NCBI GenBank assembly: GCA_004794655.1
Contig: SMMW01000003.1
Coordinates: 434,001-498,000 of the forward strand
Length of the DNA stretch: 64,000 bases
Direction: 5' to 3'
Source: Marisa cornuarietis
Taxonomy: Eukaryota > Mollusca > Gastropoda > Architaenioglossa > Ampullariidae
Under the pieces are notes generated by a model, which saw nothing but the letters and a program-made list of their open reading frames with translations, was not told where the DNA came from and ran no database searches. Shown here piece by piece: positions 9,272-63,775 of the stretch. A program made the translations under genes and the position numbers. Position 1 is the stretch's first letter; the number at the start of each line of letters is the position of its first letter.

Positions 9272-9286
9272 TCGGCTGCGACATGC

Positions 9287-12009: not shown

Positions 12010-12040
<31 letters not shown>

Positions 12041-15038: not shown

Positions 15039-15318
15039 AAGTGGTACATCAGAGAGAATGTCAGGGATGAGATCTGACCCCTTGTTGACCTCATTGTCAC
15101 AAGCCCCTACAGTGGGTCAGCAGGACTTTGTACAAACCCTCTTTTCCTGTAAAAGCAGAGATGGTGGACAGAGACAGCGACCCAAAGGATGTCGGACAAG
15201 AAGTAATTTAAGCCCTTACCACTACCACCGTCCTGCCTCCTACACACAGCCCCTCCCCCCATCCTCACGCACACACACACACACACACAATGGTGCACAC
15301 AGCTTACTTATGTGCCCA

Positions 15319-15351
<33 letters not shown>

Positions 15352-21300: not shown

Positions 21301-24300
21301 GTTGTTATGACCTTTTTTCTTTTATGTCAGAGGACAGAATTTTGCTGATTGTTTTCTGTCTTTGTATAAAGTGGGTTTTTTCCCTCTCAATTTACAGCTG
21401 CAGTCTGGAAAACTTTTCCACAAGCTACAGAAGTGGAAATGAATGGTGTGGCACGCCATATCCTAGGCTGCCCATGAAGATCCAGTGTAGTATTCTGTGT
21501 GTGGGTGTGTGTGTGCGTGCGTGCGTACTCACGTGCATGTGGGCGCCATATCCGGGGCTGCCCATGAAGATCCAGTCTGTTTTGCTGGACTGGGAGACGT
21601 GCGGCAGGAAGTAGGGTCGCTGGTAGTGCTGACGTAACATGTTGCCTGCAGAGGAGTCACAGTTGCTCCTGAAACATGGAGTAGCAGTTGTAAGCCCACT
21701 TGCCAGCTGACTTCTTTATTATAATTAACATATCTGTGTTATTTATTATAAATGACATATCTGTGTTACTTCGTTATTATAAATGACATATTTGTGTTAC
21801 TTTGTTATTATAAATGACATATTTGTGTTACTTTGTTATTATAAATGACATATCTGTGTTACTTCGTTATTATAAATGACATATTTGTGTTACTTTGTTA
21901 TTATAAATGACATATCTGTGTTACTTCGTTATTATAAATGACATATTTGTGTTACTTTGTTATTATAAATGACATATCTGTGTTATTTATTATAAATGAC
22001 ATATCTGTGTTACTTCGTTATTATAAATGACATATTTGTGTTACTTTGTTATTATAAATGACATATTTGTGTTACTTTGTTATTATAAATGACATATCTG
22101 TGTTACTTTTGTTATTATAAATGACATATTTGTGTTACTTTGTTATTATAAATGACATATCTGTGTTACTTCGTTATTATAAATGACATATTTGTGTTAC
22201 TTTGTTATTATAAATGACATATCTGTGTTACTTCGTTATTATAAATGACATATTTGTGTTACTTTGTTATTATAAATGACATATCTGTGTTACTTCGTTA
22301 TTATAAATGACATATTTGTGTTACTTTGTTATTATAAATGACATATCTGTGTTACTTTGTTATTATAAAGGACATATTTGTGTTACTTCGTTATTATAAA
22401 TGATATATCTGTGCTATTCAAACACTGACTTCTTTATTATAATTGACATATCTGTGTTATTTATTATAAATGATATATCTGTGTTACTTCGTTATTATAA
22501 ATGACATATCTGTGTTACTTCGTTATTATAAATGATATATCTGTGCTATTCAAACACTGACTTCTTTATTATAATTGACATATCTGTGTTATTTATTATA
22601 AATGATACATCTGTGCTATTCAAACACTGACTTCTTTATTTTAATTGACACATCTATGTTATTCTAACACTGATAAAGAAATGACTAAAATATCCCCACA
22701 GAACTCCTACAGTATGTAGTTAGCATCCAATCTTCACTCTGAAGACCCACTAGTGACTAGTCCTACCTGGGGAGGTAAGCAGTCTGAGGAGAGGGACCTC
22801 ACCAGCAGCTGACAACGTCCCACGTGTGCTGCTCAAAAATGGCGGGGAAGGAAGAGTGAAAGTGACTGCTCTGTGTCAAAGGGTCTGAGAACGCAAAGAA
22901 TGGCTCAGTGAATGGACACAGTCGATGAGAATATCTATTCCAAAGAAAGGAAACACGAAACAGCGCCAAATCATAAGCCTAATCCTCCACCTATGCAATG
23001 TCATGTTGGTCATCCATAACCACCTCCACACCTCTCCTGAGGAGGTTCCAGCAGAAGAACAGGCTGGTTTCAGAGTCAGACAGACACAATCATATTCAGA
23101 TACAAAAGCTACCACAGCTCCATCGACTTTTGACGAGTCTGGCACGAAGGGATGTGGCATGTGATGCAAAGATTGAAGGCCAAAGAGAGCTTCAAAGCCA
23201 CAATTATACAAGAACTCAGAGCCAAGTGCTAGTCAACAACCATGTGGGGGACTTCTTTCAGACAGCAGTGGGCGTTCGTCAAGGATGCACCCTGTCGCCT
23301 GTGCTGTTGGACATTTTAGTGAGAAACATTATGCTTGGGACTGGAGACCCAGTGGCTGAAAATCTCCGCCATGAAACGCAAACCCAGTGGTTTGTACTGA
23401 GAACAATCGCTACCCTCGAGAGACACCAGGAACCTGTTCTAGAAATAGTGACGTGGCGCAAGATTATCTGGTTTGGTCATGTCATCTGGCACCACACACT
23501 AAGACCGCCATTCTCTACACCGTGGAAGAAGGCTGGCAGTGCGATGGGGATGGGGAAGGTGAAGGAGTGGACTGGTCGTTTCATGAAGGACCTGCACGCC
23601 TCCACGCAGGTCAGCCCCACCTAGCGAGCTTTGTCAGCTGCTGCCTCTAGCCAGGACCCCTGACGACCAGCACCGATAGGCCACATTAACTTGTGACCAG
23701 TTACTGACCACTTACTATCAGTCAAGGGACTGACCATGATAGTGATGACCCACGAGAACACACCGCAAGAGCTGCTACAGCCTGTAACCGACTCCGATGC
23801 ATCATACCCAGAGAATTGTCACCACTAACCGATGTACCAATGAAAACCGAGAAACATGCTACCCTCCGTCACATGTACCTACAAAAACATAGACAAACGT
23901 TACCTATCATCCAATGTACATTTAAAAACATACCCAGAGCAATGTCACCTGTCTTCAGATGTACCTATAAAAAATACCCAGAGAAATGTTACCTGTTAGT
24001 CAATATACCTATAAAACATACCCAGAGCAATGTCACCTGTCATCAGATGTACCTATAAAACATACCCAGAGAAATGTCACCTGTCATCTGATGTACCTAT
24101 AAAACATACCCAGAGAAATGTTACCTGTCATCTGATGTACCTATAAAACATACCCAGAGAAATGTTACCTGTCATCAGATGTACCTAAAAAAGAAATACT
24201 TGGAGAAAGGTCACCTATTATCCAATGTACCTATAAAAACAGGTAAAGAAATGTCACCTGTCATCATATATACCTCTAAAAATATACTCAGAGGAATGCT

Positions 24301-24980
24301 ACCCACCACCCGATGTACCAAGGCTGCGACCTATCCTCCATGCGTGCCCGCCGTGGTTCCATCTGCAAAACCTCTCGCAGGTTCCTGAAAGTCGTCTTGT
24401 AGGGGAAGAACTGACAGTTGTTTTCTACGTTCTTCAGCTCCAAACTGTCCTGGCTATACACCTGTTGGAAGAACTCGAAGCTGAAGGTGTCCAGTGCTGA
24501 CCAGTTGCTTGTGGCGTCCGTGACGACCACCGGCTGACCCGAGTAGGCGTAGTGCTCCTCAAAGTCCTGGGGCGAGATGTTCTCCACCTTGTGTACGGAA
24601 GTGACGTTGCGACAGAAGCCGCAGTCCAGTGGAGGCCGCAGCGCATCCGACAGGATCTCTGGTGTACGAAGAAGACATCTTTCAAGCTCAATATCTTCTG
24701 CCGGTAGCCCACGAAAGTTGAACCACATTCGTATGATCCTCTCGTTTTGAAGAGGCCAGTCCAGGAAGCACACCATCGCCAAGGTGCAGGCCAGGAGCAG
24801 CAGACATTTCAAGGTCCTTGTTGTGGTTTGTAAGAAGTAGTTCTTGACCCCGCCCTGGATTTCTGCCAGAGCTGGAAGTTCAGAGACGTCCTGGTCCTTC
24901 AGTCCAAGCTGGCGTGCTTTCTCGCGTAAGTCGTGGAAGAGGAAAACAGGCGAAGGTTTCTCGAGGTCTTTGTCCGCCAT
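14098..24980 (-). CDS. JmjC/cupin-type 2-oxoglutarate oxygenase, N-terminal membrane anchor
   Basis: Four exons join in phase: 24980-24307, 21668-21533, 15539-15407 and 14183-14098, giving 342 aa. Residues about 57-73 are a single hydrophobic segment after a soluble N-terminus, a type II membrane topology that would place the catalytic domain in the lumen or outside. NVT, NIS and NWS sequons follow it. The JmjC fold is recognised by PWYIGWSNCDSSAG, MGSPGYGAHMHVD (iron ligands H270 and D272), LPSWQAQITG, VEPGHI and LDTNKWYHST (distal ligand H324). Such enzymes couple 2-oxoglutarate decarboxylation to hydroxylation or demethylation; the substrate is unknown. The DUF4806 locus lies antisense in intron 2. 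Tandem repeats flank most of its splice sites. Confidence 0.85.
14205..14906. repeat. Minisatellite in JmjC intron 3
   Basis: Units are AGTATAATAGTACT(CT)n(GT)CGTACAGACAATA, about 35-40 bp, with a shorter variant AGTATAATAGTACTCTGTTA. It starts about 24 bases upstream of the exon 4 acceptor. Openness on the minus strand is an artefact. Confidence 0.92.
14983..15036. repeat. (GT)n microsatellite
   Basis: About 54 bp of GT dinucleotides with one TATG interruption, inside JmjC intron 3. Between 15040 and 15265 no coding sequence is recognised. Confidence 0.92.
15268..15420. repeat. Three copies of the JmjC exon 3 donor region separated by (CA)n
   Basis: The true exon end on the minus strand, CCTGGCCACATAA then GTTAGT (near 15401-15420), recurs as CCTGGGCACATAA/GTAAAT (about 15361-15380) and CCTGGGCACATAA/GTAAGC (about 15302-15321). 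Each is followed by a GT-rich run. The duplicated donors match the consensus at least as well as the functional one. Confidence 0.85.
15407..15539 (-). CDS. JmjC gene exon 3
   Basis: Acceptor TAACACCAG then GTGGACAAT; donor CACATAA then GTTAGT. It encodes VDNVHLPSWQAQITGSK to DVEPGHI. It enters in phase 0 and leaves in phase 1. Both ends border tandem copies of their own splice junctions. Confidence 0.88.
15528..16776. repeat. 48-bp minisatellite built from the JmjC exon 3 acceptor, about 26 copies
   Basis: On the minus strand each unit contains TTGTTGTTAACACCAG followed by GTGGACAATTGG, that is the 3' splice site plus the first exon bases, then GTATTTACCTTACAAACA. Units vary by CAA triplets (42-54 bp) and by CCACCTGG versus CCACATGG. 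Because lengths are multiples of three, both strands stay open for over 400 codons; these are not genes. Confidence 0.92.
16777..16925. other. Short non-repeat spacer in JmjC intron 2
   Basis: Nothing recognisable other than the start of an AG-rich run at about 16924-16960 that leads into the DUF4806 relic. Confidence 0.4.
16940..17462 (+). pseudogene. Degenerate DUF4806 copy
   Basis: Three segments parallel the better copy at 20.4-21.0 kb: an exon end ASEG with a GTGAGT donor at 16988; an exon from 17050 reading KELLRLEEGLEDKDVKK and hitting TAA at 17103-17105; and a piece near 17352-17462 reading GMLRTTFSMPSAARFNFT before a GTGAGT donor. The second corresponds to EDLRRLEEDLEDGDMKKKM and the third to SMLRRLFSTPLALQYNFT. 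The TAA falls where the paralogue continues. The downstream intron also resembles that of the paralogue, so this was a segmental duplication. Confidence 0.7.
17778..17950. repeat. GT-rich imperfect microsatellite
   Basis: Mixed GTGTAC/GTGTATATGT units over about 170 bp. The ORFs on both strands here are low-complexity artefacts. Confidence 0.88.
17951..18940. other. Non-coding sequence, no supported gene
   Basis: A (TA)n tract lies near 18612-18630. The stretch 18715-18870 is unusually GC-balanced and may be an old repeat. No splice-consistent coding segment was found. Confidence 0.35.
18895..19016 (+). promoter_or_regulatory. CpG-rich segment ending in a strong 5' splice site
   Basis: A local CpG-rich block (TCGCGCGCGCG near 18943, GCGCGCGACACACGTGAC near 18965) ends at CCGTCGTG followed by GTAAGTTCG near 19015. 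This pattern fits a promoter with a short non-coding first exon, possibly for the plus-strand DUF4806 locus downstream. This is inference from composition and one splice site. Confidence 0.35.
19017..19780. other. AT-rich sequence, possible first intron of the DUF4806 locus
   Basis: A (TA)n tract lies near 19396-19414. No coding segment is recognised. Confidence 0.35.
19780..20590 (+). repeat. Threefold tandem duplication of an exon-intron unit (about 256 bp)
   Basis: Copies 2 and 3 begin at TTTTTACTTGCAG followed by exons starting at 20075 and 20331, exactly 256 bp apart. Each 114-bp exon (20075-20188, 20331-20444) ends before a GTTTGT donor and is phase 1-1, so duplication preserves frame. 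Copy 1 (exon end at 19933) is more diverged on its left side. Copy 2 carries an in-frame TAG; copy 3 is open. Confidence 0.8.
20331..21477 (+). pseudogene. DUF4806-domain gene, spliced, with a one-base frameshift
   Basis: Exons 20331-20444, 20600-20658, 20831-20989 and 21398-21477 have matching phases, except that the third is one base short. The second reads EDLRRLEEDLEDGDMKKKM. The third starts IKYFSCIG, then the frame shifts at a G run (20852-20855) to DSMATLVRSMLRRLFST and ends VRGVMMG. The fourth reads AVWKTFPQATEVEMNGVA and stops at TGA. The order, with the hydrophobic LF-STPLA core followed by AV-KTFPQAT, is the layout of DUF4806 domains found in many invertebrate proteins of unknown function. 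Upstream it may include the exon copies at 19.8-20.2 kb. The frameshift may be real decay or a homopolymer sequencing error. It lies inside JmjC intron 2 on the opposite strand. Confidence 0.65.
21533..21668 (-). CDS. JmjC gene exon 2
   Basis: Acceptor ATGTTTCAG then GAGCAACT; donor ATGCAC then GTGAGT. It runs SNCDSSAGN to MGSPGYGAHMH, so the first iron-binding histidine is its last codon and the paired aspartate is in exon 3. The phases (2 in, 0 out) match both neighbours. Confidence 0.88.
21715..22660. repeat. AT-rich minisatellite, about 31-bp units
   Basis: Core TTATTATAAATGACATAT followed by (C/T)TGTGTTACTT(C/T)G, in roughly 28 copies. The right part contains a longer variant with CTATTCAAACACTGACTTC. 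It lies in JmjC intron 1, beginning about 47 bases upstream of the exon 2 acceptor. Confidence 0.92.
22920..23640 (+). pseudogene. RTE-like reverse transcriptase relic
   Basis: Fragments in two frames resemble endonuclease-RT proteins: ISIPKKGNTKQ, IISLI, EEVPAEEQAGFRV, then GVRQGCTLSPVLLDIL, then WRKIIWFGHVIWHHT and KVKEWTGRFMKDL at the C-terminus. Segments between RT motifs are missing, including motif C (Y/F-x-D-D), and frames shift, so this is a dead copy with internal deletions. It sits in intron 1 of the JmjC gene. Confidence 0.75.
23803..24320. repeat. 44-bp minisatellite derived from the JmjC exon 1 donor, about 11 copies
   Basis: On the minus strand the exon end GGTACATCGGGTG, donor GTGGGTAGCATTCC and CTGAGTATAT align with repeat units GGTACATCAGATGACAGGTAACATTT... 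continuing CTGGGTATG. The first unit therefore overlaps coding sequence. Units left of 23900 are more diverged. Confidence 0.8.
24307..24980 (-). CDS. JmjC gene exon 1
   Basis: It starts at the ATG reading MADKDLEKPS and encodes the cytosolic N-terminus, the membrane segment and the start of the catalytic domain up to QPWYIGW. It ends in phase 2 at a GTGGGT donor. An upstream in-frame CTG exists, but the ATG is the natural start. The donor sits at the edge of a 44-bp repeat array. Confidence 0.85.
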
Positions 24981-29090: not shown

Positions 29091-29154
29091 GAGACGAGAG
29101 CTGAACCCAGGACATACAACCTTCACTGTATTAGATGGTAACGGGCGCAAACCG

Positions 29155-36345: not shown

Positions 36346-36384
36346 GTATTGCAGTCTGGGTCACTCCTTCTCTTTTTGATTATT

Positions 36385-41225: not shown

Positions 41226-41970
41226 ATGGATTTGCCTGTTAAAAGCAGGCGAGTAATAATCGCCGGCTTGTGTTGCCTGGTCGTTGTTGTAATCGGAGAA
41301 CTATACACATTTTCACAGCATTATGAAACAAGGGCCAGAGCATTTAGAGCACATGTTGGCATTCTTCTTGTTCAGAGTATCCTAGCTTTGATTTCAAAAT
41401 TCATTTGGAATAATGTAATCCGTATAAAAGAAAATCATATCATTGAACGAGAAGTAGTGTCTGATCAGGCAAACGGATTGAAACGGTGGACTGCCATGGA
41501 ATGGATTTTGTTAATTTATATCAGCGTAGTCCACACAAGCAACCTCACAAATCTGTTTTTAATAGGCAGAGAACCACACTGGTTTGCAATGCTGGCATAC
41601 AGCGCTTTAGGTTTTCATTTCCAGCTTGCCACTGGGCTAGGCATACTCAAACTATTTCAGTTTGCCCTGCGCTTTATCCAGTACAGATCAAACAACTTCG
41701 CTAGTGGACTCACCTTCAGGCCAATAAACAAGGTGTCCACACGCAGAACAGTAATAGTAGCCATAATTTATGCATTTTTGGCAACAACATTTGGAATTTA
41801 CAAGGCAGCTCAGATACCTGAAGTAAAAAAAGTCGTGATACCTATTCAGAATCTTCAACACAGCTGGGATGGTGCTCGTATTGTCCAGATCTCAGATGTC
41901 CACTTGGGACCAACAGTTGGATTGACAAAACTCAATATGATAGTTGACATCATCAATACTCTTAGACCAG
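41226..41970 (+). CDS. TMPPE: TMPPE exon 1
   Basis: Encodes the N-terminal multi-span region and the first phosphoesterase block (QISDVHLGP). Donor AGACCAG then GTAAGG, phase 1. Confidence 0.93.
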
Positions 41971-44440
41971 GTAAGGTCACTGTCATTCATTGACCTACAC
42001 CATCATCATCATCATTTTTGATTATGCCCTCATCATCATTTTTGATTATACCATTGCTGCATCAATTCCATTACTACATCAATGTTACATTAACTTTAAT
42101 ATTGTCTTCATAATCAGGCTTAGTTTCCCATGAAGTAATTATTTTACCAGTACGTTTGGAATCAGGGTGATTCACATTCTGGTTGTACTCATTATATGCT
42201 AGGAGTGCTCTGACACATAGTTTGAATGTCAGGAACAAAAATGTTTCGAAACAAAAACAAAGGTGAAATTTACAGAATGTGCAGCCTGAGTCTATAAAGA
42301 AAGTTACAACATAAATATACTCCCATGCTGCATCTTTACAAATACAGATATAGGCTAAGTTATATTCACAAGAGCACTTTCAAATATATTTTGTCTCATT
42401 TGCCCAACTATATACTCTCACACCTATGCATTGGTTCAAGGCTACATGCTCTTTAAATTTGTAGCTCTTTCATGCTTACTTTCCAGCAGATGAGCATTAA
42501 CTGCAGTCAGTCTTTTGTTGTGGCAGATATTGTAGTCATGACCGGTGATCTGGTAGATGGTTCTGTGAGAATGCTTGAGGAAGCTGTGTCACCACTAACA
42601 AGAGTCCGATCAAAGTATGGAAATTTTTTTGTCACAGGTAAGTTGAACTGCATTCGAAGTGCAGTTTCTGTTCCATATCTATTATTATTACAGGTTACAT
42701 AAACATAATTGGTTAGATTGTATCTGTTCAGTTTAAACTTTGCACCTGAGCTTTGTTTTTAAAATAAGTATCTGATACAAATGGTTGAATTTTACATCTA
42801 AGTTTAATATAGTGTAATACATAAATATATAGGCTTTTTCAACTTTATTTGAGTCTCATTCCAAGGCCTATTCAAGGCTTAAGATCACAGTTTCCTCATG
42901 CTCCTCTCTTGAACAGGCAATCACGAGTACTACACAGGGGATGTGGACAACTGGTTCATCAAACTAGAGTATGAGCTGGGCTTCACACCTTTGCATAATA
43001 GTAATGTCAAGGTCATTCCAGATGGAGGAAATGAGGCTGATGAGATCTGTGTTGCTGGCACTGATGATCTAGCTGCTGACTTATTAGGGTGAGGAAGCTT
43101 CTTTCATTTTTGGTTTTACTTCTTTAATTCTTTAAGTAATTTGTGTCTGGACCTGAAGTATAATGTATAATTACTAAACTGCAGTATAATGCATAATTAC
43201 CAAGTTGCAGATGTGTTCAAATAGTGCACTAATATTAAATAACAAGCTATGTATGTTGCTTTTAATGTACATATTAGCAAGATACAAATGAACAATTTAA
43301 TAGAATGTTGTAAAAATAGTTCATTTATTACTTTGAACACCATAAACTGCACATAAGGCCTGGAATGCTGCTGGTTTAGAATGAGTTAACACTCTGCACC
43401 CAGGTATTTGTGGTGTAGTGGTATAATCCGCTTGCATTAACAGGCACTAACCAAAGTGGAGAGCATGAGCTAATGTGGCAAGATGTAGAATTTCTTGTTG
43501 TAATTTGCTGTAAGTATGCAGGTCATGGGTTCAACATCAATGATTCATGGTCCAAGATGTAGAATTTCTTGTTGTAATCTGGCTTAGGTATACAGGTCAT
43601 GGGTTCAACATCAAGCGTGCCCTACATGACTGTGATGACACGAAGCCTGTGATAGTGCTGGCTCATCAACCCAAAGCAGCCAAAGCCATCCTCCAGTCTC
43701 AATACAGAGTAGACCTTGTTCTTGCAGGTATGGAAGCCAGACTCAGCCCAAATTCATAATAGAGCATAGAACTCATTATGAAAGTATTGTAGCCAGAATT
43801 AGTCTGTGTTTGCATTTCTGATCAGGTCTTGTTTTGCCATGTGTGTCATAACATTATTAAATTAACATGATTAAAGTCAGGCTTTAATGTTCACACCTTT
43901 TTTTAAATACATATGCTTACAATTGTAAATCTTTTTTCCAAAATATTTACAAATGGTGAAAATCTGCATGATAAAATTCCTCAAATTTTGTGAACTTTAG
44001 ATATCATAAAGAAGGGGTGGGGTGGGTAAAGGGTCTCAAATTCATCTAGTCTGGCTTAGACTGAAATGCATTGGCTGCCACTCCTGCTAAATACCTGTTG
44101 CATATTGTTATAGTCTAGCTCCAAATTATTCTTGATTATTTTTCATGACCTGGTGCATTTGTGTAATTTTTATGTTGTAGGTTATTGAGATCATAAGCTT
44201 TTATATATTAATGGCTGTCACACAGGACACACACATGGAGGGCAATTTTTCCCAGTGCTGATTGGTGCATACCTCATAAACCCCTTCTTCAGTGGCCTAT
44301 ACCAGTATGGTCAGAGTCATGTGTATGTGTCAACAGGCACACAGTACTGGGGGGTGCCACTGAGACTGGGCTCCTCCATGGAGATTACAGAGATTACACT
44401 GCGTTCAGCTGAAGCCCACAGGGCCACAGAATACATTTAA
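41226..44440 (+). CDS. TMPPE: Transmembrane protein with metallophosphoesterase domain
   Basis: Five exons join in phase: 41226-41970, 42527-42637, 42917-43088, 43588-43727 and 44226-44440, giving 460 aa, close to the usual length of vertebrate TMPPE. About five hydrophobic segments fill residues 10-200. The C-terminal calcineurin-like phosphoesterase has all metal-binding blocks: SDVH (D224, H226), GDLVDG (D256), GNHEYY (N287, H288), LAHQP (H369) and GHTHGGQ (H391, H393). It should be a membrane-bound metal-dependent phosphoesterase; its substrate is not established. The ATG at 41226 is the first in the coding frame. Splice sites are all GT-AG. The gene appears intact. Confidence 0.93.
42527..42637 (+). 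CDS. TMPPE: TMPPE exon 2
   Basis: Acceptor GTGGCAG then ATATTG; donor GTCACAG then GTAAGT. It carries [12 protein letters not shown] and begins the GNHE block, which is split across the intron. Confidence 0.92.
42917..43088 (+). CDS. TMPPE: TMPPE exon 3
   Basis: Acceptor TTGAACAG then GCAATCAC; donor TTAGG then GTGAGG, phase 2. It completes [13 protein letters not shown] and runs to DDLAADLLG. Confidence 0.92.
43484..43613. repeat. Duplicated intron-exon junction before TMPPE exon 4
   Basis: GATGTAGAATTTCTTGTTGT, the acceptor area and GGTCATGGGTTCAACATCAA occur at 43484-43542 and again at 43555-43613. Only the second copy has the usable GGCTTAG acceptor; the first has GCTGTAAG and no productive frame. 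Confidence 0.88.
43588..43727 (+). CDS. TMPPE: TMPPE exon 4
   Basis: Acceptor GGCTTAG then GTATACAG is the only one that keeps phase 2. It encodes [12 protein letters not shown] to [10 protein letters not shown] and VDLVLA. Donor CTTGCAG then GTATGG. A mutated copy of this acceptor region lies about 71 bp upstream. Confidence 0.9.
44226..44440 (+). CDS. TMPPE: TMPPE exon 5 with stop codon
   Basis: Acceptor GTCACACAG then GACACACAC. It encodes [12 protein letters not shown] to the C-terminal ATEYI, then TAA. Confidence 0.93.
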
Positions 44441-51330: not shown

Positions 51331-52549
51331 CTCACATCATGCATTTGAGAAAGCACAACACAATTTGATAATTCCAGACATTGTCAATCTCAATAAATGA
51401 TGCATGTGAAAAGGGGTGGGGGAGAGAACATGGCAAGGAAACAGGAAATGTCAAATGGTTACAACGAAGCAGTTTTGGGATATTCAACTTCAATATACAT
51501 CAATATATAACTTCAAAATACATTGTTCATTCATTCCCCTGGGTCGACCTTTCAGACACACACCAGTGTCTGTAAAAATGAGGGAGGTGGTAGCTGACAG
51601 ATTAATATAAGGTCCAGCCTGGTCTGTGGTGGTGTAAACAAGGAGATTCCACTTTTCATGTCTATTTTGTCTCAATATCTCACAGTTGACTCTCCATGTT
51701 CAAACTGCATGAATTTGAAAACAATCTTGTTTTATGATTTTTAAATGATAAGCATGCTGGTGGTGGTAGTGATGATGATGATGATGATGATGATGAACTA
51801 GAAGGTAAGTGTGTTCCAGACAGGTGGGACGATGAAGGGAAATGTACGACTACCAAAAGAGTTTAAACTAATCATAGGGACAGTCAGCAGCATTTCTCTA
51901 GATATCAGAGTGACCTAAAAGGAAAGACAGGCAGGAAGAGTCCCCTCAAACTGCAAAAAGTTAGAAATATATATAAAACTTCAATGGCAATCAATGAAGT
52001 TCCCTGAGTAAAGGTGTCATGTGCTCATGGCTCATGCTCTGATTTACTGAAAACAAAGCATGCTCTTCTGAACTATTTGCACATGCACAATCTGGTCAAC
52101 AGACAAGCCATGCATCACAGTGTTACTCCATTCAAGTTGCAAAGTAACCACTGCAGAGACCAGTCTAGCCTGGGGCAAATGCTGAAGTCAGAGAAGGAGA
52201 AGAATTTATGAATTATATGTTACATATTACAGCTGTAGACTGAACAGCATGTAGAAGATTGTAAAGTTTTCTTTCTTATTTTATACTCTGAGTAAAAAAT
52301 ATTTCTTTGAATATGCCAAGCAGGGTCTTGAGAAGATGGATATGAGAGTGAAGTCTACATGATATTAAACTTTAAAACACATGCTTATGGGGGATATACA
52401 TTTGTTTAGCTTTCCCCTCTACCTGTCACTAAGCATTAAGTCTGAACCAGTGGTCATGAGTTAACCAGGTCTCACTGGACTGTAGTTGCTGAATTATCAA
52501 GACAATTTCACATTGTGATGACACAGTCAGCGCTGTCGCATTTTCTCCT
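51331..52549. other. 3' flank of the TLR gene, no further gene
   Basis: This would hold the TLR 3' UTR. A (GAT)n run lies near 51770-51794. I see no exact AATAAA on the minus strand close to the stop codon. Confidence 0.4.
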
Positions 52550-52761
52550 TTAAGCCTGTATGTTATGTCTTAGTGGTAGCAAACTCTTGGCTAGGCGGTC
52601 ATTCACTTGCTCAATGAAGTCATCTTGGGGTCTGGCCAGGTTGTACCATTCTTGAAAATCATTGTTTTGCATCATTATTCGCAGACTCTTGGGAACTTGT
52701 TCTGGCTCCAGTTTGCCATGCTGCAAAAGTTGTAAACACACTTCGTCTACCACTTTCATAG
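52550..52761 (-). CDS. TLR last exon, end of TIR domain
   Basis: It encodes KVVDEVCLQLLQHGKLEPEQ, VPKSLRIMMQNNDFQEWYN and DDFIEQVNDRLAKSL, the last strands and helix of a TIR domain, then TAA at 52552-52550. The acceptor GTTTGAGTAG has a poor pyrimidine tract, so its exact start is uncertain. Confidence 0.78.
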
Positions 52762-55371
52762 CTACTCAAACTATTTAAAGCATTGGTAACCATATAGCAT
52801 TTGAAAAATGTTGACATTCTTTAGTATAAACCACAATAAATGTATATACACTTTGTGAAACTTGCCCGATTATCAAACCATTTTATTATTTGCAGCAATT
52901 GCCCCAAGACATGCTTGTCTATCAAAGTCTGCCATGTCATTATCATAATGATCCTTTTGTGTGTTAAAGTCCATTTTGCCCACATTCTCATTTGTTAAAA
53001 ATTTGATAAATGAGAAATTGGACCAAATGGACTTTGAATAGCAAACACAAAGCTCCACAACACCCGGTAACCCAACCTATCAATCATATTCACATTAAAA
53101 AAAATATGTACCAATGTCTTATACCACTTCCTTCTTTAAGTATGTCCCTCACCTTAATAACATCCATCTTGTTTATTTGACCGTCATATTTTTGTTGAAT
53201 AATCAGGTGTAGTACAGGGTCACACAAGGGGTCCTTCACCAGTTTGGGTGTGAGAACCACCAAAGCAGCTCTGCAAGCCTCAAGATTATCATCGATATTT
53301 GCAACTTCACTTTTTCCACATTGGCCATCTCTCTCACCAAAATACAGACTATACCTTCCTGTATATCTCTGCCCATGCCCTCCTTGTATTTCACCGTTAT
53401 CCAGGACTGGTAAGATATTTTCACGCACCCACTCAGTGTCCTCTTTGCTGTGAAACAAAAAGAAGTCGTACTTTTTGTCCTCACCAGGAATCGCCTGATA
53501 ATCCCCATGCCTTTGATCCTGACCTTTTACAGCTCGCCTGGTGAATAAAAGGTAAAAATAATTAGGCTGAAAAAACGTTTGACATTGTTTTGCACATTGT
53601 GAAATATGTTTGTAATAGCCTTTGTGAATTTATTTCTTGGTCTAATGTAATATGTAATATTCTGTATCGATAAAATGTCAGCATATTTGCATCATGGCAT
53701 ATGATCAGAGTTGGTGGAATGTGATAGTGTCTAGGTATATGGTCCCTGTTAATAGCAATTATGATCAGCGCTCATGCCATACATACACTATGGATGAGAA
53801 GTGTCTAATGTATGTGTGAGCAGCATGAATATAATGTGCTTGATGCATGGTCAGTGTTAATGCCTTGTGGCCAGTTTGTATTTACAAAATGCTAGTGCCA
53901 TATGTTTTCACTGTTGATGGCTTATGTAATGATAAAAAATAATGACCTACCAAGTCTCACAATACAACTTACTTGATAGCCTTCGTCGCACGGTGTATAC
54001 GGAACCTCAAGAACCATCGCTGGCGGTAGGTGACGCCACAGATGACCAAGGTAATTAAAAAAACAAGGACAGAGAACCCTCCCACATAGTACCACAGGTA
54101 ACTCTCACACTTGATCTTCTGTGCTGTGAATGAAACAAGTGACTTCCCATTCCACTCTGGTGGGCTTGAGACAGAGAAGAGAGTTGACAATAAAGATGTC
54201 AGCTGAAGAATCAAGAGGCAAGAGTATTTACAGCTCATTAAGCTTAACCTGCTTTCCATGGGAAGCTTCAATTCAACAATATTAAGTAAAATAATAATAA
54301 TGGGATTTATATTGTGTGCATTTCCCCACATGGAGGTGAGCTCAGTGCACTTTACAAGATACAAGGGGCAGTAGGTCATGATGCTGTGTGACAGAGATGA
54401 CATCACAATGAAGCAAACATACAAACACACGTGCACAGTGACCATTGCCAGCAACATAAAGGAACATAGAGAAGAGAAGGTGGAGAAAGTAACAGTCAGG
54501 GAAAACCCTGGGTATATAGGGTAAATACATGATGTAGAAGATCTTTTAACTGGAAGCTTCCATTCAACAGTATTATGTGCCATAGCAGATCATGATTAAC
54601 ACATATCTATCATCCCTAAGAGTTCTGACTGAGCTGCTATTGGTGTCTGTCTATAAAGCTTCTCTCTCTCTCCCCTTGAAATTATGATTACAACACAAGT
54701 ATTTCAGTTCTGCAGTTCTGTAAAATATTGTAAAAGTCTTATAAAGTCTTATGAAATCAGGAAGAAATATTCTCATTGGTCTACCTTGCACATTTGTAGG
54801 TTTGCCAGCCTGCCACATTGACTGTAGTGTTGTCCAGCCATGAACGAAACCAGCGAAGGTCACAAGTACAAGCAAAGGGGTTTAAGGAAAGATTGAGCAT
54901 CTTTAGCAGCTGCAGATCTTTTACAGATGTCTGGTTTATCAAAGCAATCTGGTGACAGAGTTGTCAAGTTAACAACACATCCTCCCAGCACGGTGGATAA
55001 TTCAGTCACATTCTCTGGTGAAATAAAGGGCCAGTCAAGATGATAGACATGTCAGGCTAAAATGGTCATACAGAGGGAAGAGAGAGAAAGAGTTCAGTCA
55101 GGGTGCAACGACCAGGAGAGGAGAAAAGTACCTGATTGTTACTAAGGTCCAGTGTCTGCAGATTTCTGGCAGGGGTAGTGAAAAGACCAGGACCCCAGGA
55201 AGACAGGTGATTGTTGCTCAGATCCAAGGTCTCCAACTGGAACAAATTCCTGTAAGACACAAGCTTGACTTTAATGTCAGGGCACTGGGTGTTTGTGTGT
55301 GCGCATTTGTGTGTTTCTGTATGGGTGCTCATTTGTGTCTGTGTGTCTGTCCATTTGTGTATTTGTACCCA

Positions 55372-55429
<58 letters not shown>

Positions 55430-58400
55430 CTGTGTGTCCAGCATACACTAGAGTGTTAGTTCAAGCTTCAGTAATACAGACCCAGTAAATGTCGCATCAG
55501 CTAGAGGTTCCACTAACTCCTAGATGACCCTAAATTTAGTTTTTGAATGATAAACATAATGTAATGGCTTATTCTCCTTTATCTCTCCTGCCAAATCAAT
55601 ATATAATGACTAAAGACAGCCTACGACAATAAAACATTCTCTACAAGCAGATGAAAGGCTTGCCTGAATGCCAAGTCATTGATAACATCGAGGCTGTTGT
55701 TGGACAGCAGCAGTCTCTGTAGTTTGCGCTGACCAGACAAAAACTGTCCACCATCATCATTGGCCAGAACACCCCTGAGATTGTTGTTCTGCAGGTTAAG
55801 GATCTGAAGACTCTCAAGGGCTGTCAAGTCACGGAAGCCCATGAAGGAGCATTGGTTGCTGGACAGATCCAGTGTTGTCAAGGTAGTCAGGTCATCAAAG
55901 ACTCCCTCACTCTTGTCAAATGTTTTCAGGTTATTGTTCTTGAGAATGAGAGTTTCAAGACTGACAAGTGGGGAGAAGAAGTCCTTGGGAAAGTAGCTGA
56001 GCTTGTTGTCATTCAGGTGAAGGATGCGAAGGTTGGACAGACCGAGGAATGAATCCGCTGCCACTTCATGCAGGTTGTTGTTACTGAGGTACAGCTCACG
56101 AAGGTTGACCAGCTGAGCGAAGACCTGGTCCTGAAGCTTCTGAATGTTGTTGCCCTGCACAGAGTGATAGTTCATGCTCAGAGATATACGATGCAGCAGG
56201 GTAGCACATTTTAACGCAAACATAAGTCAAAAGTGACAAAAATGATAACAGCACACAGATGACTGCAATATACATGAAGGCAGCATTGAAGGCAGCATAT
56301 TGGAGTCATTTCAACCCCAATCTGAGGGACCTTGATTTGTTGAAAGAATGCTTGTCATAATCTAAAGCAGGTGTAGGAGGCAGAAATCACAGCTCTCCTT
56401 GCACTGCATTCAATTCCCCCCAACCCCTCCCCCTACAAATGAGATTTCACCTGCCGAGTAGACAGACGTTGTCCACTCACATGCAAGCCTTCAATCTGCA
56501 ATCTTCTGCTCTAGTGTGCAACAAAAAACTATATAAGGCTACGTCACCTCTCTAAGCAAATGTGTTTCCATCATATAGTTAACCTGTTACTACATTAAAT
56601 ATGCATTCCAGTCACATGTGATTTCTAACGTGCAGTCCTGTGTTTTTACCTGCAGTATAATTCTACGTACAGCAGCAATATACTTACAATATAATCCTAC
56701 ATACAGTAACAATATACTTACAATATAATCCTACATACAGTAACAATATACTTACAATATAATCCTACATACAGTAACAATATATCTACAATATAATCCT
56801 ACATACAGTAACAATATAATCCTACAATCATATTTATAGACATATTATGGTACCTGTAGGTATACCACTGTGTGTAAATACATTACCTGTAGGTATACCA
56901 CTGTGTGTAAATACATTACCTGTAGGTATATACCACTGTGTGTAAATACATTACCTGTAGGTATATACCACTGTGTGTAAATACATTACCTGTAGGTATA
57001 CCACTGTGTGTAAATACATTACCTGTAGGTATACCACTGTGTGTAAATACATTACCTGTAGGTATACCACTGTGTGTAAATACACTACCTGTAGGTATAC
57101 CACTGTGTGTAAATACACTACCTGTAGGTATACCACTGTGTGTAAATACACTACCTGTAGGTATACCACTGTGTGTAAATACACTACCTGTAGGTATACC
57201 ACTGTGTGTAAATACATTACCTGTAGGTATATACCACTGTGTGTAAATACATTACCTGTAGGTATATACCACTGTGTGTAAATACATTACCTGTAGGTAT
57301 ACCACTGTGTGTAAATACATTACCTGTAGGTATACCACTGTGTGTAAATACATTACCTGTAGGTATACCACTGTGTGTAAATACACTACCTGTAGGTATA
57401 CCACTGTGTGTAAATACATTACCTGTAGGTATACCACTGTGTGTAAATACATTACCTGTAGGTATACCACTGTGTGTAAATACACTACCTGTAGGTATAC
57501 CACTGTGTGTAAATACACTACCTGTAGGTATACCACTGTGTGTAAATACACTACCTGTAGGTATACCACTGTGTGTAAATACACTACCTGTAGGTATACC
57601 ACTGTGTGTAAATACACTACCTGTAGGTATACCACTGTGTGTAAATACATTACCTGTAGGTATATACCACTGTGTGTAAATACACTACCTGTAGGTATAC
57701 CACTGTGTGTAAATACATTACCTGTAGGCATACCCACTGTGTGTAAATACATTACCCGTGGTGGCCACCACCGTGTGTAAATAAACCTACCTGTAGGTAA
57801 TACCCACCGTGTGTAAATACATTACCTGTAGGTATACCACTGTGTGTAAATACACTACCTGTAGGTATACCACTGTGTAACACACCACCCTGTAGGTATA
57901 TACCACTGTGTGTAATACACCACCTGTAGGTACCATGTAACAAATACATTACCACTGTGTGTAAATACACTACCTGTACGTATACCACTGTGTGTAAATA
58001 CACTACCTATAGGTATACCACTGTGTGTAAATACATTACCTGTAGGTATACCACTGTGTGTAAATACATTACCTGTAGGTATACCACTGTGTGTAAATAC
58101 ATTACCTGTAGGTATACCACTGTGTGTAAATACATTACCTGTAGGTATACCACTGTGTGTAAATACATTACCTGTAGGTATACCACTGTGTGTAAATACA
58201 TTACCTGTAGGTATACCACTGTGTGTAAATACACTACCTGTAGGTATACCACTGTGTGTAAATACACTACCTGTAGGTATACCACTGTGTGTAAATACTC
58301 TACCTGTAGGTATACCACTGTGTGTAAATACACTACCTGTAGGTATACCACTGTGTGTAAATACACTACCTGTAGGTATACCACTGTGTGTAAATACACT

Positions 58401-61400
58401 ACCTGTAGGTATACCACTGTGTGTAAATACACTACCTGTAGGTATACCACTGTGTGTAAATACACTACCTGTAGGTATACCACTGTGTGTAAATACATTA
58501 CCTGTAGGTATACCACTGTGTGTAAATACATTACCTGTAGGTATATACCACTGTGTGTAAATACATTACCTGTAGGTATACCACTGTGTGTAAATACACT
58601 ACCTGTAGGTATACCACTGTGTGTAAATACACTACCTGTAGGTATACCACTGTGTGTAAATACACTACCTGTAGGTATACCACTGTGTGTAAATACACTA
58701 CCTGTAGGTATACCACTGTGTGTAAATACATTACCTGTAGGTATATAACCTGTAGGTATACCACTGTGTGTAAATACACTACCTGTACGTATACCACTGT
58801 GTGTAAATACACTACCTATAGGTATACCACTGTGTGTAAATACATTACCTGTAGGTATACCACTGTGTGTAAATACATTACCTGTAGGTATACCACTGTG
58901 TGTAAATACATTACCTGTAGGTATACCACTGTGTGTAAATACATTACCTGTAGGTATACCACTGTGTGTAAATACATTACCTGTAGGTATACCACTGTGT
59001 GTAAATACATTACCTGTAGGTATACCACTGTGTGTAAATACACTACCTGTAGGTATACCACTGTGTGTAAATACACTACCTGTAGGTATACCACTGTGTG
59101 TAAATACTCTACCTGTAGGTATACCACTGTGTGTAAATACACTACCTGTAGGTATACCACTGTGTGTAAATACACTACCTGTAGGTATACCACTGTGTGT
59201 AAATACACTACCTGTAGGTATACCACTGTGTGTAAATACACTACCTGTAGGTATACCACTGTGTGTAAATACACTACCTGTAGGTATACCACTGTGTGTA
59301 AATACATTACCTGTAGGTATACCACTGTGTGTAAATACTCTACCTGTAGGTATACCACTGTGTGTAAATACACTACCTGTAGGTATACCACTGTGTGTAA
59401 ATACACTACCTGTAGGTATACCACTGTGTGTAAATACACTACCTGTAGGTATACCACTGTGTGTAAATACACTACCTGTAGGTATACCACTGTGTGTAAA
59501 TACATTACCTGTAGGTATACCACTGTGTGTAAATACTCTACCTGTAGGTATACCACTGTGTGTAAATACACTACCTGTAGGGCATACCACTGTGTGTAAA
59601 TACTCTACCTGTGGTATACCACTGTGTGTAATACACTACCTGTGGGTATACCACTGTGTGTAAATACACTACCTGTGGCATACCACTGTGTGTAAATACA
59701 CTACCTGTGGTATACCACTGTGTAAAATACATTACCTGGGGTATACCACTGTGTGTAAATACTCTACCTGTAGGTATACCACTGTGTGTAAATACACTAC
59801 CTGTAGGTATACCACTGTGTGTAAATACACTACCTGTAGGTATACCACTGTGTGTAAATACACTACCTGTAGGTATACCACTGTGTGTAAATACATTACC
59901 TGTAGGTATACCACTGTGTGTAAATACTCTACCTGTAGGTATACCACTGTGTGTAAATACACTACCTGTAGGTATACCACTGTGTGTAAATACACTACCT
60001 GTAGGTATACCACTGTGTGTAAATACACTACCTGTAGGTATACCACTGTGTGTAAATACATTACCTGTAGGTAAAGCTTTTGCAGGCTGGCTGGAAGGTT
60101 TTGTGGCACAGATGTAACTTGCTGATTGTCACCCAGAAACAAGATCTGCAGAGCTGTGAGGCCCAGGAAGGCAGAAGAAGAGACATTTTGTATCTGACAT
60201 GCTGACAAATCCAGTTGTGTGAGCTTGGGCAGGTTGGCAAAGGTTTGGTCAGGAACCACATTAATCTGTGGCATGTCAGAAAGAAACAGAGCTAAAGGCT
60301 GCAACATTATTTTCTCCAGCTTGAGTACAAATGAAGCAGCGAGGGTTCATTGTCACGATGCAGTGAGAGACCAAAGTATGAAAAGGACAATTCTTTATTA
60401 ACGAGATGTAAAGTAAGCAAGACATGCTTTTTTCCACTTTAACTATGATAAATGTAACACACAACATGCAAAATAAGACTGTGGAGGTGTATAAAAATGC
60501 TTTCCATTTTAGTTGAATAGACGATTATTATATTGCTGCCTGCTATAAAGCCGTGATACTTAGTGTGAGTGCAGCTCACAGCCACAGCAACAGGCCGATT
60601 GTCAAACCTTTACTACCTCTGTAAAGTCAATACAGTGGGTTTATATTCTCACATACTCATCTTGATATGCCAGCATGTTTGCGGTTGAATTTTGTTTTCG
60701 ATTTTTCAATATTTTTGTGTGTAAAATCAACCAGTGTACTTGTCCTAGGGGATGAATAAAGTTATATTGTTATTGTATTGCGCTGTATTATCATAGCCTT
60801 ATGTTGTTATTGTTGAAGATGATGACCGTGAGCGGTGTACATGTATAACTGTATTATGCTGCATTATCGTGATCTCACTTTGTTATTTTTGAAGATGATG
60901 ACCCTGAGTGGTGAAGCGGCCAGGAGGCTGAAGGTCTTGGAAGGAATGCTGCCGTCCAACTGAATTTGCCGAATGTCCACTGACTCCAAGCTGGTAAAAT
61001 TCTGCATCCCACGAAACAGGTTCTGCAGCTGCAAGCCGTCGATGGGGTTGTAGCCAATCTTCAGGGACTGCAGTGAGGTCAAAGGTTGCATCGCTTCTGC
61101 ACTTATCTCCCTGATGTACAGAACAACAGCAACAGAATGTTGAATACATAATGAGGAACATGATGATGACAAATGACAACAATAACAATGATGTGCACAA
61201 TACTAATGATGTAAGTTAATAATGTTCAGTAACAAACGTTAGGTAACCATCAGTATGACAACATAACACCAGTACAATAGGAAAGACAATCACGTTGTAC
61301 CTCACTATAATGATGTGGCTATTAGAGTTTTCATCCAATGATTCACTTGAAGCAGAAAACACCTCAGTCTCTCGGAAAAGTGCGCAGTTGTCTTATTCTT

Positions 61401-63641
61401 CTGGTTATGTGACATATTGCAGCTGTGTGTAATCTACTTGCCTTGTGTCTATCATATGTGTGTAATCCACTTGTCATCTGTTATAAGCACATCATCTGTT
61501 TGTCATCGTTGCTTGTGTGCCATCTAATGACCAGTTATAATATTAGCATAATGTGTACCAGTTACATATTACATGTGCTTGTATAGATGACATGACAACT
61601 TACTGAATCTTGTTGCGTGTGATCTCAAGAGCGCGCAGGGAACTTCCTGCCAGTGCCTTGAAGGAGTCATTGGTGAGCCTGATGATCTTGTTGAGACTGA
61701 GTACCAGCTTGTTCAGGTGGGTCATCGTCCCATAGCTAGTGGGGACCGTTCCATTCTCAATCTGATTGGCATTGAGGTCCAAAATCGTGAGGTTGGTCAG
61801 ACGTCGCAGTTCTGGCATCAAAGTCAAACGGTTTGCACCCAAGCTGAGGTACGTTAAGGACTCCGCACCCTTGGTAAGAGAACAACAGATCTGAGTTGAT
61901 GATTTCTTGTGGAAAAGGTGTGGATAAAGCAGTTTTACACAAGCTGTGTGTCACAATAAACACTAGAGTTGTGCTGATGATATGTGTACCTTATTAAATC
62001 CAATATGCAGTACTTTGGTAGAGTCCCACTGTATCAAAGCCCGATGTTTGAGCAAATGGTCCAGTATAACAGCACAAACTCACTATTTTACATCTGTGTT
62101 TGTGGTGTACAGATTAAACAGCATACACATTCACATATTAGAGCCTGGTTTCCCAAAACACATCTCTGATTATGACCTACAGCTTCAGACCCTTCTATTG
62201 CAATTAAAGTGCAATATTAAAGGACAGGATCAGTCATGGTGAACACCATCGAATGTAGTCAAGCAGAGATCCGAATAAACGGAGTGCAGGTGGGGGGGGG
62301 GGAGAGGTGCAGTCCTTCAAATATCCGGGACTGACCATTTCCATGGACAGTAGCTGCGCGGCGGACGTGCGTCTCAGGATCACAGCAGCAACAACGGCGA
62401 TGGCCAGGCTCAGCAACATATGGGACAACAGAAATGTGTTTCCGCACCAAATGAAGGCGTGACAAGTCTTTTGCTGTACCCACCCTGCGGAAAAGAGAAC
62501 AGCTGAGAGACATGGACCTTGATCCCAGAATCGGAGCGACGGATCCAGGTGCTCGAAGTAATTCAGGAGACTCCTTCGGATCTCCTACAGGGAGCAAAAG
62601 ATGAACGACCGTCACCCCTACCATCAGGCGGCGGAAGCTGGTGTCGTAGTTACAGTCCCTGGTGGGGTTCAGTCATGTCATCCGACATGTCACCTTACCG
62701 AAGACTGTCCTCCAAGGATAGTAAAAGCGCTCGATGGCGTGCGAAGAGAAAAGAAAAGCTGGCTGTCTATCGATAGGACAGGTTAAGAGATTGTAGTGTT
62801 TTCAGTCACTAACCTGCTTTGATGTAAAATTCATTCCGAATGTTATTTCTGACAATAATCAGCTATAAAATAATTACAAAACTACTTGAGTACTTTCTTG
62901 AAATTGTCTCATTTACAATGCTAGTCTTCTAAGTCAATGAATTAAAAGCAAACACATGAACTACTGTCTACAGCTTGAGACACACTGTCAGTGACATGAT
63001 GGTCCAGACTACTCTCTATAGCTTGAGACACATTGTCAGTGACATGATGGTCCAGACTACTGTCTACAGCTTGAGACACACTGTCAGTGACATGATGGTC
63101 CAGACTACTCTCTATAGCTCGAGACACACTGTCAGTGACATGATGGTCCAGACTACTGCCTACAGATTGAGACAAACTGTCAGTGACATGATGGTCCAGA
63201 CTACTGTCTACAGATTGAGACACATTGTCAGTGACATGATGGTCCAGACTACTGCCTACAGATTGAGACATATTGTAAGTGACATGATGGTCCAGACTAC
63301 TGTCTATAGCTTGAGACACTGTCAGTGACATGATGGTCCAGACTACTGTCTACAGCTTGAGACAAACTGTCAGTGACATGATGGTCCAGACTACTGCCTA
63401 CAGCTTCAGACATTGTCAGTGACATGATGGCACTTACTTGAAAGACATCAGGGTGCAGTTGCTGGATGTAGCCATTAGTCAAGTAGAGGTTTTTCAGTTG
63501 AGGAAGATTCTGGAAAGCCAGAGGGTCAACCTCGCGAAGTGGGTTGTTGCGAAGGTAGACAGTTATCAGGTTGCTTAAGTTAGCCAACGCCCCCTTGTCA
63601 AGAGATGAGATCTGATTGTGGTCCAGAAACAACGTTTCCAC
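52550..63641 (-). CDS. Toll-like receptor, 5' end outside the window
   Basis: Ten exons are visible: 63641-63438, 61869-61604, 61110-60879, 60265-60065, 56154-55664, 55249-55132, 54948-54785, 54164-53973, 53537-53125 (end uncertain) and 52761-52550, totalling 2493 bases. Repeated LxxLxLxxN units form a leucine-rich ectodomain, followed by an LRR C-terminal cap, one membrane helix and a cytoplasmic TIR domain. Such receptors sense microbial or endogenous ligands and recruit TIR adaptors. The signal peptide and first LRRs lie upstream of 63641. Many introns in the ectodomain contrast with the often intronless vertebrate genes. Every junction is phase-consistent, except that the last one needs a weak donor. 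Confidence 0.88.
53125..53537 (-). CDS. TLR TIR-domain exon (3' end uncertain)
   Basis: Acceptor TATTCACCAG then GCGAGC. TIR box 1 is YDFFLFHSKED. Box 2 is GRYSLYFGERDGQCGKS, with Cys where most TLRs have the BB-loop proline. CRAALVVLTPKLVKDPLCD is the following helix-strand. Two donors are possible: ATTAAG/GTGAGG at 53153 (good consensus, phase 0) and AGTG/GTATAA at 53125 (weaker, phase 1). Only the second keeps the frame into the last exon. Confidence 0.78.
53973..54164 (-). CDS. TLR transmembrane exon
   Basis: Acceptor GTCTCAAG then CCCACCAG; donor ATCAA then GTAAGT, phase 2-2. A juxtamembrane stretch (PPEWNGKSLVSFTAQKIKC) leads into YVGGFSVLVFLITLVICGVT, a clear membrane helix, then a basic stop-transfer (YRQRWFLRFRIHR). 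Confidence 0.88.
54261..54578 (-). mobile_element. L2-like 3' fragment flanked by imperfect 27-bp repeats
   Basis: GGAAGCTTCAATTCAACAAT at 54261 and GGAAGCTTCCATTCAACAGT at 54552 bracket a segment that begins (AAT)n and contains GCACTTTACAAGATACAAG. The two flanks match at 24 of 27 positions, as for an old target duplication. It lies in the intron before the TLR transmembrane exon. Confidence 0.6.
54785..54948 (-). CDS. TLR exon, last LRR and LRR C-terminal cap
   Basis: Acceptor CTGTCACCAG then ATTGCT; donor TGCAAG then GTAGAC, phase 2. It encodes LKMLNLSLNPFACTCDLRWF and SWLDN, then YKCA, the cysteine pattern (CxC...C) of an LRRCT, which shields the end of the solenoid. Confidence 0.87.
55132..55249 (-). 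CDS. TLR exon, LRRs
   Basis: Acceptor TGTCTTACAG then GAATTTG completes an Arg codon with the GC-donor exon. It encodes NLFQLETLDLSNNHLSSW and LQTLDLSNNQ. Donor AATCAG then GTACTT, phase 0. Confidence 0.85.
55376..55422. repeat. (GT)n microsatellite
   Basis: About 45 bp of GT in a TLR intron, preceded by GT-rich imperfect sequence from 55290. Confidence 0.9.
55664..56154 (-). CDS. TLR exon, six or more LRRs, GC donor
   Basis: Acceptor CTGTGCAG then GGCAACAAC. It encodes LRELYLSNNNLHEV, LRILHLNDNKLSYF, LETLILKNNNLKTF, LTTLDLSSNQ, LQILNLQNNNLRGV and LQRLLLSNNSLDVI. The only phase-compatible donor is CATTCAG then GCAAGC, a GC-AG intron; phase 2. Confidence 0.88.
56655..56830. repeat. 34-bp minisatellite, about 5 copies
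   Basis: CTACATACAGTAACAATATA then CTTACAATATAATC, in the same TLR intron as the 33-bp array. 56155-56650 is ordinary intron. Confidence 0.85.
56855..60074. repeat. 33-bp minisatellite derived from a TLR 5' splice site, about 97 copies
   Basis: On the minus strand each unit is TACCTACAG/GTA(A/G)TG then TATTTACACACAGTGGTA. The first unit contains the last nine bases of the exon ending at 60065 and its real donor. Three main variants occur: GTAATG, GTAGTG and GTAGAG. An 809-bp block is repeated (57971 onward and 58780 onward). Patches at 57750-57960 and 59580-59750 are unusually ragged. Confidence 0.94.
60065..60265 (-). CDS. TLR exon, LRRs, ending at the head of the 33-bp array
   Basis: Acceptor ATGCCACAG then ATTAATGTG; donor TACCTACAG then GTAATG. 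It encodes LTQLDLSACQIQNV, LQILFLGDNQQVTSV and LQKLYLQ; the last LRR is completed by GNNIQKLQ of the next exon. The last nine exon bases are the start of the repeat unit that fills the following intron. Confidence 0.9.
60275..60860. other. TLR intron with no recognised feature
   Basis: Near 60746 GGGGATGAATAAAGTTATATTG resembles the terminal bases of Rex1-like 3' ends but is too short to assign. Confidence 0.4.
60879..61110 (-). CDS. TLR exon, LRRs
   Basis: Acceptor TACATCAG then GGAGATAAG; donor AACAAA then GTGAGA. It encodes EISAEAMQPL, LQSLKIGYNPID, LESVDIRQIQLDG and LRVIIFKNNK. Phase 2 in, 0 out. Confidence 0.87.
61604..61869 (-). CDS. TLR exon, LRRs
   Basis: Acceptor CTTACCAAG then GGTGCGGAG; donor AAGATTCA then GTAAGT. 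It encodes LTYLSLGANRLT, LTILDLNANQIE, LNKLVLSLNKII and LRALEITRNKI. Phase 0 in, 2 out. A second AG nine bases downstream is an alternative acceptor. Confidence 0.85.
61900..62950. other. TLR intron, non-repetitive part
   Basis: Weak ORFs near 62234-62786 have no recognisable family. A G run lies near 62293-62302. It may contain an old unclassified repeat. Confidence 0.35.
62955..63430. repeat. 48-bp minisatellite, about 10 copies
   Basis: GTCAGTGACATGATGGTCCA then GACTACTGTCTACAGCTTGAGACA... units. The 16-codon period keeps both strands open. On the minus strand it starts seven bases after the TLR donor at 63437. Confidence 0.92.
63438..63641 (-). CDS. TLR exon with three LRRs (first visible)
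   Basis: Acceptor TTTGCTGCAG then GTGGAAACG; donor TTTCAA then GTAAGT, phase 0-0. It encodes LFLDHNQISSL, VYLRNNPLREV and LYLTNGYIQQL repeats, ending HPDVFQ. A 48-bp array starts seven bases into the next intron. Confidence 0.88.
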
Positions 63642-63721
63642 CTGCAGCAAACGACGTGAATTAACTGGAAGACAGACGGCACAGTGACCAGCTGCAACAC
63701 TAATTTCTAATTGTATAAACT

Positions 63722-63775
63722 TTTAGGGTTAGGGTTAGGGTTAGTGACATGATGTCAGTTAACCCTAACCCTACT
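63722..63775. repeat. Short telomere-like repeats in inverted arrangement
   Basis: TTTAGGGTTAGGGTTAGGG at 63721-63740 and, about 20 bases on, TTAACCCTAACCCTA (63758-63772), the reverse complement. Between them is TTAGTGACATGATGTCAG, which itself holds the TGACATGATG motif of the neighbouring 48-bp array. Confidence 0.85.

Follow-up and report, generated by a model that had tools for sequence, protein, structure and literature searches.

How did an intron of a Toll-like receptor (TLR) gene come to be filled with copies of its own 5′ splice site, and what might such copies mean for splicing? These questions are raised by a minisatellite in the minus-strand TLR gene of the Marisa cornuarietis window, that is, the whole 64-kb stretch of DNA that was analysed. 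We examined the anatomy of the array, the conservation of the exon end from which it starts, its predicted splicing potential, and the other exon-intron junctions of the window.

Results

The TLR gene and its array-filled intron

The TLR model comprises ten exons from 63641 to 52550 with matching phases and an open frame, and the N-terminus and upstream exons lie outside the window. Pfam detected the class features of an LRR ectodomain and a TIR domain (LRR_8 at 2.1e-26 in the exon e piece; TIR at 5.3e-05, with 23.5 bits against a cut-off of 21.3), and LRRs were found in all three LRR-exon pieces scanned, exon d not being among them; the transmembrane segment is assigned from the sequence alone. 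Orthologues matching at 45–49% come from Littorina, Babylonia, Batillaria, Oncomelania and one further source, and include an Oncomelania entry named 'Toll-like recptor 11'. The features that bear on the array are as follows.

52550..63641, minus strand: part of the TLR gene in the window, 10 exons (a–j), 807 codons plus stop, with LRR, TM and TIR
60065..60265, minus strand: TLR exon d (leucine-rich repeats), ending in TACCTACAG, its boundary placed by the phase-matched gene model and orthologue alignment
56155..60064, minus strand: intron d, 3,910 bp, phase 0, GTAATG...GTGCAG, of which the array makes up 3,214 bp
55664..56154, minus strand: TLR exon e, starting with GGCAACAAC (GNN) and completing LYLQ/GNNI
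56851..60073, minus strand: 33-bp minisatellite, about 97 copies, beginning on the gene strand with nine exon bases (60073-60065)
56656..56818, minus strand: second array in intron d, 34-bp unit, 4.8 copies, carrying GTAAGTATA, with no exon bases seen

Intron d splits LYLQ/GNNI within one LRR, and the 33-bp array occupies 82% of its length. By phase and orthologue alignment, the following intron, after exon e, is of the GC-AG type and begins with GCAAGC at 55663. Upstream of exon a, telomere-like repeats in inverted orientation lie around a short spacer at 63720-63775, with three CCCTAA at 63740-63723 (minus strand) preceded by about two TTAGGG.

The array unit spans the exon d donor

TRF reported the minisatellite at 56851-60073 with a period of 33, 97.4 copies and 93% matches. 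Greedy segmentation, in which the array was cut from the exon end, yielded 96 segments, of which 77 measured exactly 33 bp; the first six bases of the 96 segments were GTAGTG (47), GTAATG (37), GTAGAG (seven) or other (five). A 30-base unit pattern with up to three mismatches matched 89 times in the window, always within 56865-60072, compared with a mean of 0.00 matches in 100 shuffles, and the same search found no unit in the rest of the 64 kb. The array of about 97 copies reported in the preliminary description of this locus is thus real, and so is the donor said to lie in each unit, with 91 of the 96 segments starting with one of the three forms named. Its site is likewise as first described, except that the start moves from 56855 to 56851; the intron itself runs from 60064 to 56155.

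Exon d ends with CTTTACCTACAG/GTAATG at 60065/60064. Segmentation, the gene model and the pattern search agree with the earlier reading that the unit equals the last nine bases of the exon (TACCTACAG, coding YLQ) plus the first 24 bases of the intron, such that each copy re-presents CAG/GTARTG. The match between unit and exon spans exactly these nine bases, the tenth being T in the exon and A in the unit, and TACCTACAG has one occurrence outside the array when both strands of the window are counted. The consensus unit also carries TTTACACACAG and the 14-nt TGGTATACCTACAG.

Among the segments, 21 were distinct, a number to which cutting artefacts contribute. Within the array, the longest exact self-match detected measures 580 bp at a distance of 809, and the recurrence of blocks suggests past turnover in the one haplotype available. 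Indels cluster at about 57730-57960 and 59570-59740, two stretches that may be unpolished sequence. Their appearance could hint that the copy number was inflated by an assembly artefact, but this explanation is highly improbable given the variety of segments, their arrangement in ordered blocks, and the non-repeat flanks on either side of the array.

The exon end is conserved, and a related intron start lacks the array

We next consider whether the exon or the array came first. YLQ at the end of exon d is kept in all four named caenogastropod orthologues aligned (P0121, P0123, P0124 and P0125) and in P0122, while the other five aligned rows, which are more distant, read LNLN (P0126), LYLD (P0129-P0131) or LDLR (P0132) at this site; the alignment covers 10 of the 120 hits listed. 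Because YLQ is conserved across the caenogastropod orthologues aligned, the exon end is old coding sequence that was copied by the array. Copying in the direction from exon to array is therefore strongly supported by the sequence comparison.

The only match to a query made of exon d and the array was P0241, a predicted protein of 100 aa that shares 66 of 70 residues across MPQ and exon d. It reads LYLQ/VMCLYTNKTMQQ..., consistent with the same intron and a GTNATG start (nucleotides deduced from the codons), and its continuation past exon d, VMCLYTNKTMQQKRAQ..., was read as intron. Since P0241 starts with MPQ, which is the reading of the end of intron c in the Marisa TLR, it looks like unspliced sequence. 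No array and no second copy (no second YLQV) is present in the 30 intron codons (90 nt) seen. The first six intron codons are VMCLYT in P0241 versus VMYLHT in the array-bearing gene, a four-of-six match in which each of the two mismatches is reachable by one nucleotide change; outside the array, seven of the window's 90,228 stop-free 6-mers match VMYLHT equally well. P0241 could be a recent paralogue, and it would represent either the pre-array state or a contracted one, array loss and array gain not being separable from a single sequence.

These observations also bear on whether a dispersed satellite invaded the intron and came to end at the donor by chance. Tandem arrays make up about 34% of the window, and some other units do recur at several of its sites. 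The 33-bp unit, however, holds conserved coding bases and is absent elsewhere in the window, and in P0241 a similar intron start is present as a single copy, so that an invasion of this kind is exceedingly improbable. The origin from the splice site that was first proposed draws support from the same conserved exon bases and single-copy intron start. Most likely, the junction was the seed and the array is a local, recent expansion.

Array donors match the real donor in predicted strength

Including the real donor, there are 90 CAG/GTARWG sites, which provide the copies with AG/GT signals. Pairing of the real donor with U1 was predicted at −8.1 kcal/mol, and the three main array donors fall at −8.0 to −8.2, with −6.6 for the rarer TAG/GTAGTG; within the TLR gene, only the exon i donor was predicted to pair more strongly (−10.1). 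If the real donor is the one used, the choice must rest on position or exon context.

The reading frame had been described as open into the array. It does continue from exon d through 110 intron codons before a stop at 59734, but the 33-bp register is lost in the tenth unit. A retained array would be expected to yield a premature stop. Thirty-nine of the 90 donors are in frame, and an open frame without a stop is kept by nine of the 89 array donors (10 of 90 when the real donor is counted). It is conceivable that the array serves as a decoy or alternative-splicing device, in which array donors compete with the real one and add VMYLHTVVYLQ steps of 11 residues between LRRs; alternatively, a retained array would terminate the protein 110 residues further on, so that the receptor lacked its membrane and TIR portions. 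The U1 predictions for the three main donors and the nine that keep the frame open are compatible with such a device. Set against them are the register breaks with the stop, the count of only 39 in-frame donors among 90, the intron start of P0241 that lacks an array, and the alignment, where none of the 10 sequences has the array peptide at this place. We regard this function as very unlikely.

Recursive splice sites consist of an AG directly followed by a GT. The array likewise presents AG/GT, differing in its weak polypyrimidine tract and many copies. Each CTACAG/GTARTG could in principle act as a joined acceptor and donor, a ratchet point for stepwise removal of the intron with the mRNA unchanged, and the sequence implies that a step joining the exon to a unit-end AG would regenerate both exon end and donor and could be silent. 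The number of CAG/GTARWG sites and the normal exon end that such a step would give both favor this idea, and each unit contains a branch-like UUUAC motif whose A sits 21 nt ahead of the unit end. The tract argues the other way: pyrimidines account for 10 of the 20 nt before the unit-end AG, at the low end of the 10–17 counted for 13 modelled acceptors. Recursive splicing of the array is thus possible but unlikely.

Other splice junctions of the window are also duplicated

Copies that cross a junction and lie within 600 bp were found for four of 27 modelled boundaries: the donors of exon c, exon d and exon 24980-24303, and the acceptor of TMPPE exon 4. Those other than exon d are listed here together with an array that adjoins exon a.

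60774..60898, minus strand: two-copy duplication over the exon c donor (60879/60878), with 60898-60850 copied at 60822-60774, 38 of 49 identical
43479..43614, plus strand: two-copy duplication over the TMPPE exon 4 acceptor (43587/43588)
23891..24319, minus strand: 44-bp array whose first copy covers the inferred donor of coding exon 24980-24303 together with the exon's last bases
62960..63430, minus strand: 48-bp array, 9.9 copies, beginning at the eighth intron base after TLR exon a, with no exon bases

In TMPPE, about 62 bp including 27 exon bases are near-identical between the copy (43479-43540) and the real sequence (43553-43614). The junction of exon 24980-24303, for which exon and donor are predicted, is identical to its copy inside the 44-bp array at 40 of 51 positions. 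The gene that contains this exon gave no Pfam match; comparison of the exon with PDB sequences gave weak matches to JMJD5 (E 0.02) and a ryanodine receptor (E 0.02), and the gene may be described as weakly JmjC-like. Splice junctions are not spared from duplication in this window.

Control sets of 1,500 positions each also contained sites with copies within 600 bp: 469 among random window positions, 611 among intron-interior positions and 133 when intron d was left out. Four of 27 boundaries is no clear excess over random positions. For arrays, 88 TRF rows were merged by hand into 36, and the 29 with units of at least 15 bp were retained, seven with shorter units being left out. Three of the 29 end within 10 bp of an exon edge, and in each case the edge is a donor, never an acceptor. 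Random placement at this tolerance, which was picked after the cases had been seen, put a mean of 0.22 near an exon edge, and the fraction was 0.0017 (P 0.002); a tolerance of 5 gave one observed (0.11) and a tolerance of 15 gave three (0.003). With a null in which arrays were truncated at exons, a mean of 1.7 arrays touched a donor and the fraction rose to 0.24, and for seeds spanning a junction, with two taken as observed, the fraction was 0.043. Because these tests disagree (P 0.002, 0.04 or 0.24 depending on the null) and the tolerance was post hoc, no enrichment of arrays at donors is claimed. The broader idea that 5′ splice sites are the preferred birthplaces of minisatellites here, and that the arrays are self-erasing chains of recursive splice sites, is decidedly unlikely. 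If it were true, steps to unit-end AGs would rebuild the exon end and donor, and introns would gain kilobases with the mRNA unchanged.

The TMPPE-like gene (41226-44440, plus strand) adjoins the TLR gene (52550-63641) in the window and is closest to Pomacea canaliculata, with 85% over 69% of the query and 86% in the alignment. The Batillaria matches to TMPPE and the TLR are numbered consecutively (BaRGS_00008528 and BaRGS_00008527) and come from contigs of equal length, which suggests that the linkage of the two genes is conserved. Elsewhere in the window, a unit of AGATAGCAATAATACCAG plus a TC run is dispersed, with arrays at 4442-4761, 5058-8522, 12025-12779 and 32037-33598 (the last as the reverse complement), and arrays at 29168-29918 and 34410-36348 have a GTGTGGGATATT... 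unit in common, with several nested periods. A 48-bp array (15531-16784) lies within 15304-16824, where several frames are open on both strands, up to 506 codons. An open frame of 797 aa at 9272-11665 contains a reverse transcriptase domain (RVT_1, 9.5e-36); two further frames, at 27722-29122 and 50624-51331, resemble RT on visual inspection, and a Pfam scan of the latter gave no match.

Discussion

Our findings suggest that the minisatellite very probably arose when an exon-intron junction was duplicated in tandem. According to this explanation, one 33-bp stretch of nine exon and 24 intron bases was duplicated inside a caenogastropod TLR intron, and the array would then have grown, including by block duplication, as expected from unequal exchange. 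The exon-proximal donor would be used and the array removed as part of an ordinary intron, its length presumably drifting in a nearly neutral manner. It may be tolerated because exon d stays intact upstream and because joining the exon to any unit-end AG would restore TACCTACAG/GTA, with no change to the final mRNA. The array is probably removed by splicing without harm. Decoy sites, alternative receptor tails and copy-number-dependent splicing, all raised in the preliminary description, are proposed effects that may occur; the predicted U1 pairing of the main array donors and the human boundary repeats discussed below are consistent with them.

Minisatellite-like tandem duplications of exon-intron boundaries have been named 'mirages' in the globin and Adh3 genes of amphioxus (PMC3087553), with further cases in TnC and PGBD5 (PMC3902484). 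The array in intron d has this anatomy, with a unit that spans an exon-intron boundary and copies that carry AG/GT signals. In the portions of these reports available to us, the amphioxus arrays (Adh3, the globins BflGb6 and BflGb9, TnC and PGBD5) share with ours a unit over the boundary and AG/GT signals in many copies, and they show length instability (PMC3087553). They affect several genes of the same genome, at either the 5′ or the 3′ boundary, as do the duplications in this window (PMC3087553, PMC3902484). The present array differs in belonging to a gastropod and in having about 97 copies of a 33-bp unit, compared with 3–6 units in BflGb6 and 2–7 in PGBD5. The amphioxus data, as far as those portions go, suggest that regular splicing is undisturbed, with cryptic use left open (PMC3087553), and a predicted exon within the repeats had no transcript support (PMC3902484). 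By analogy, amphioxus genes that splice normally despite their arrays would count against the proposed splicing effects.

Human genes in segmental duplications offer a different comparison. Their internal tandem repeats, according to the available part of that study, resemble ours in having units of about 30 bp, with some at exon-intron boundaries, and have about four copies on average; the boundary repeats are linked to novel introns, often with a transcript that retains the repeat (PMC2812944). Altered introns of this kind would count, again by analogy, against the normal splicing that we assume. Here, however, the intron is also present in the array-less P0241. Duplication of sequence bearing AG/GT creates new potential donor/acceptor pairs (PMC3443670, PMC4974935, both in part), and the array has such pairs in common with it; unlike in intron creation by that route, a new intron is not indicated here, intron d being found in P0241 as well.

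Among the literature matches listed, 'mirage' pointed only to amphioxus, and none described a boundary minisatellite in a mollusc or gastropod, which does not prove that such a case is unpublished, or combined recursive splicing with repeats. A search for Pomacea, minisatellite and intron gave no match; a Conus match speaks, in its available text, of simple repeats, and repeats are unmentioned in the available part of a paper on gastropod hemocyanin introns (PMC8599328).

The array in the Marisa TLR gene extends minisatellites of the exon-intron boundary from amphioxus to a mollusc immune receptor, with far more copies than the amphioxus counts cited above. With some 90 near-identical donors of similar predicted strength behind a single exon, it constitutes a natural test of first-donor choice by the spliceosome, and it also offers a test of whether such arrays lengthen introns silently.
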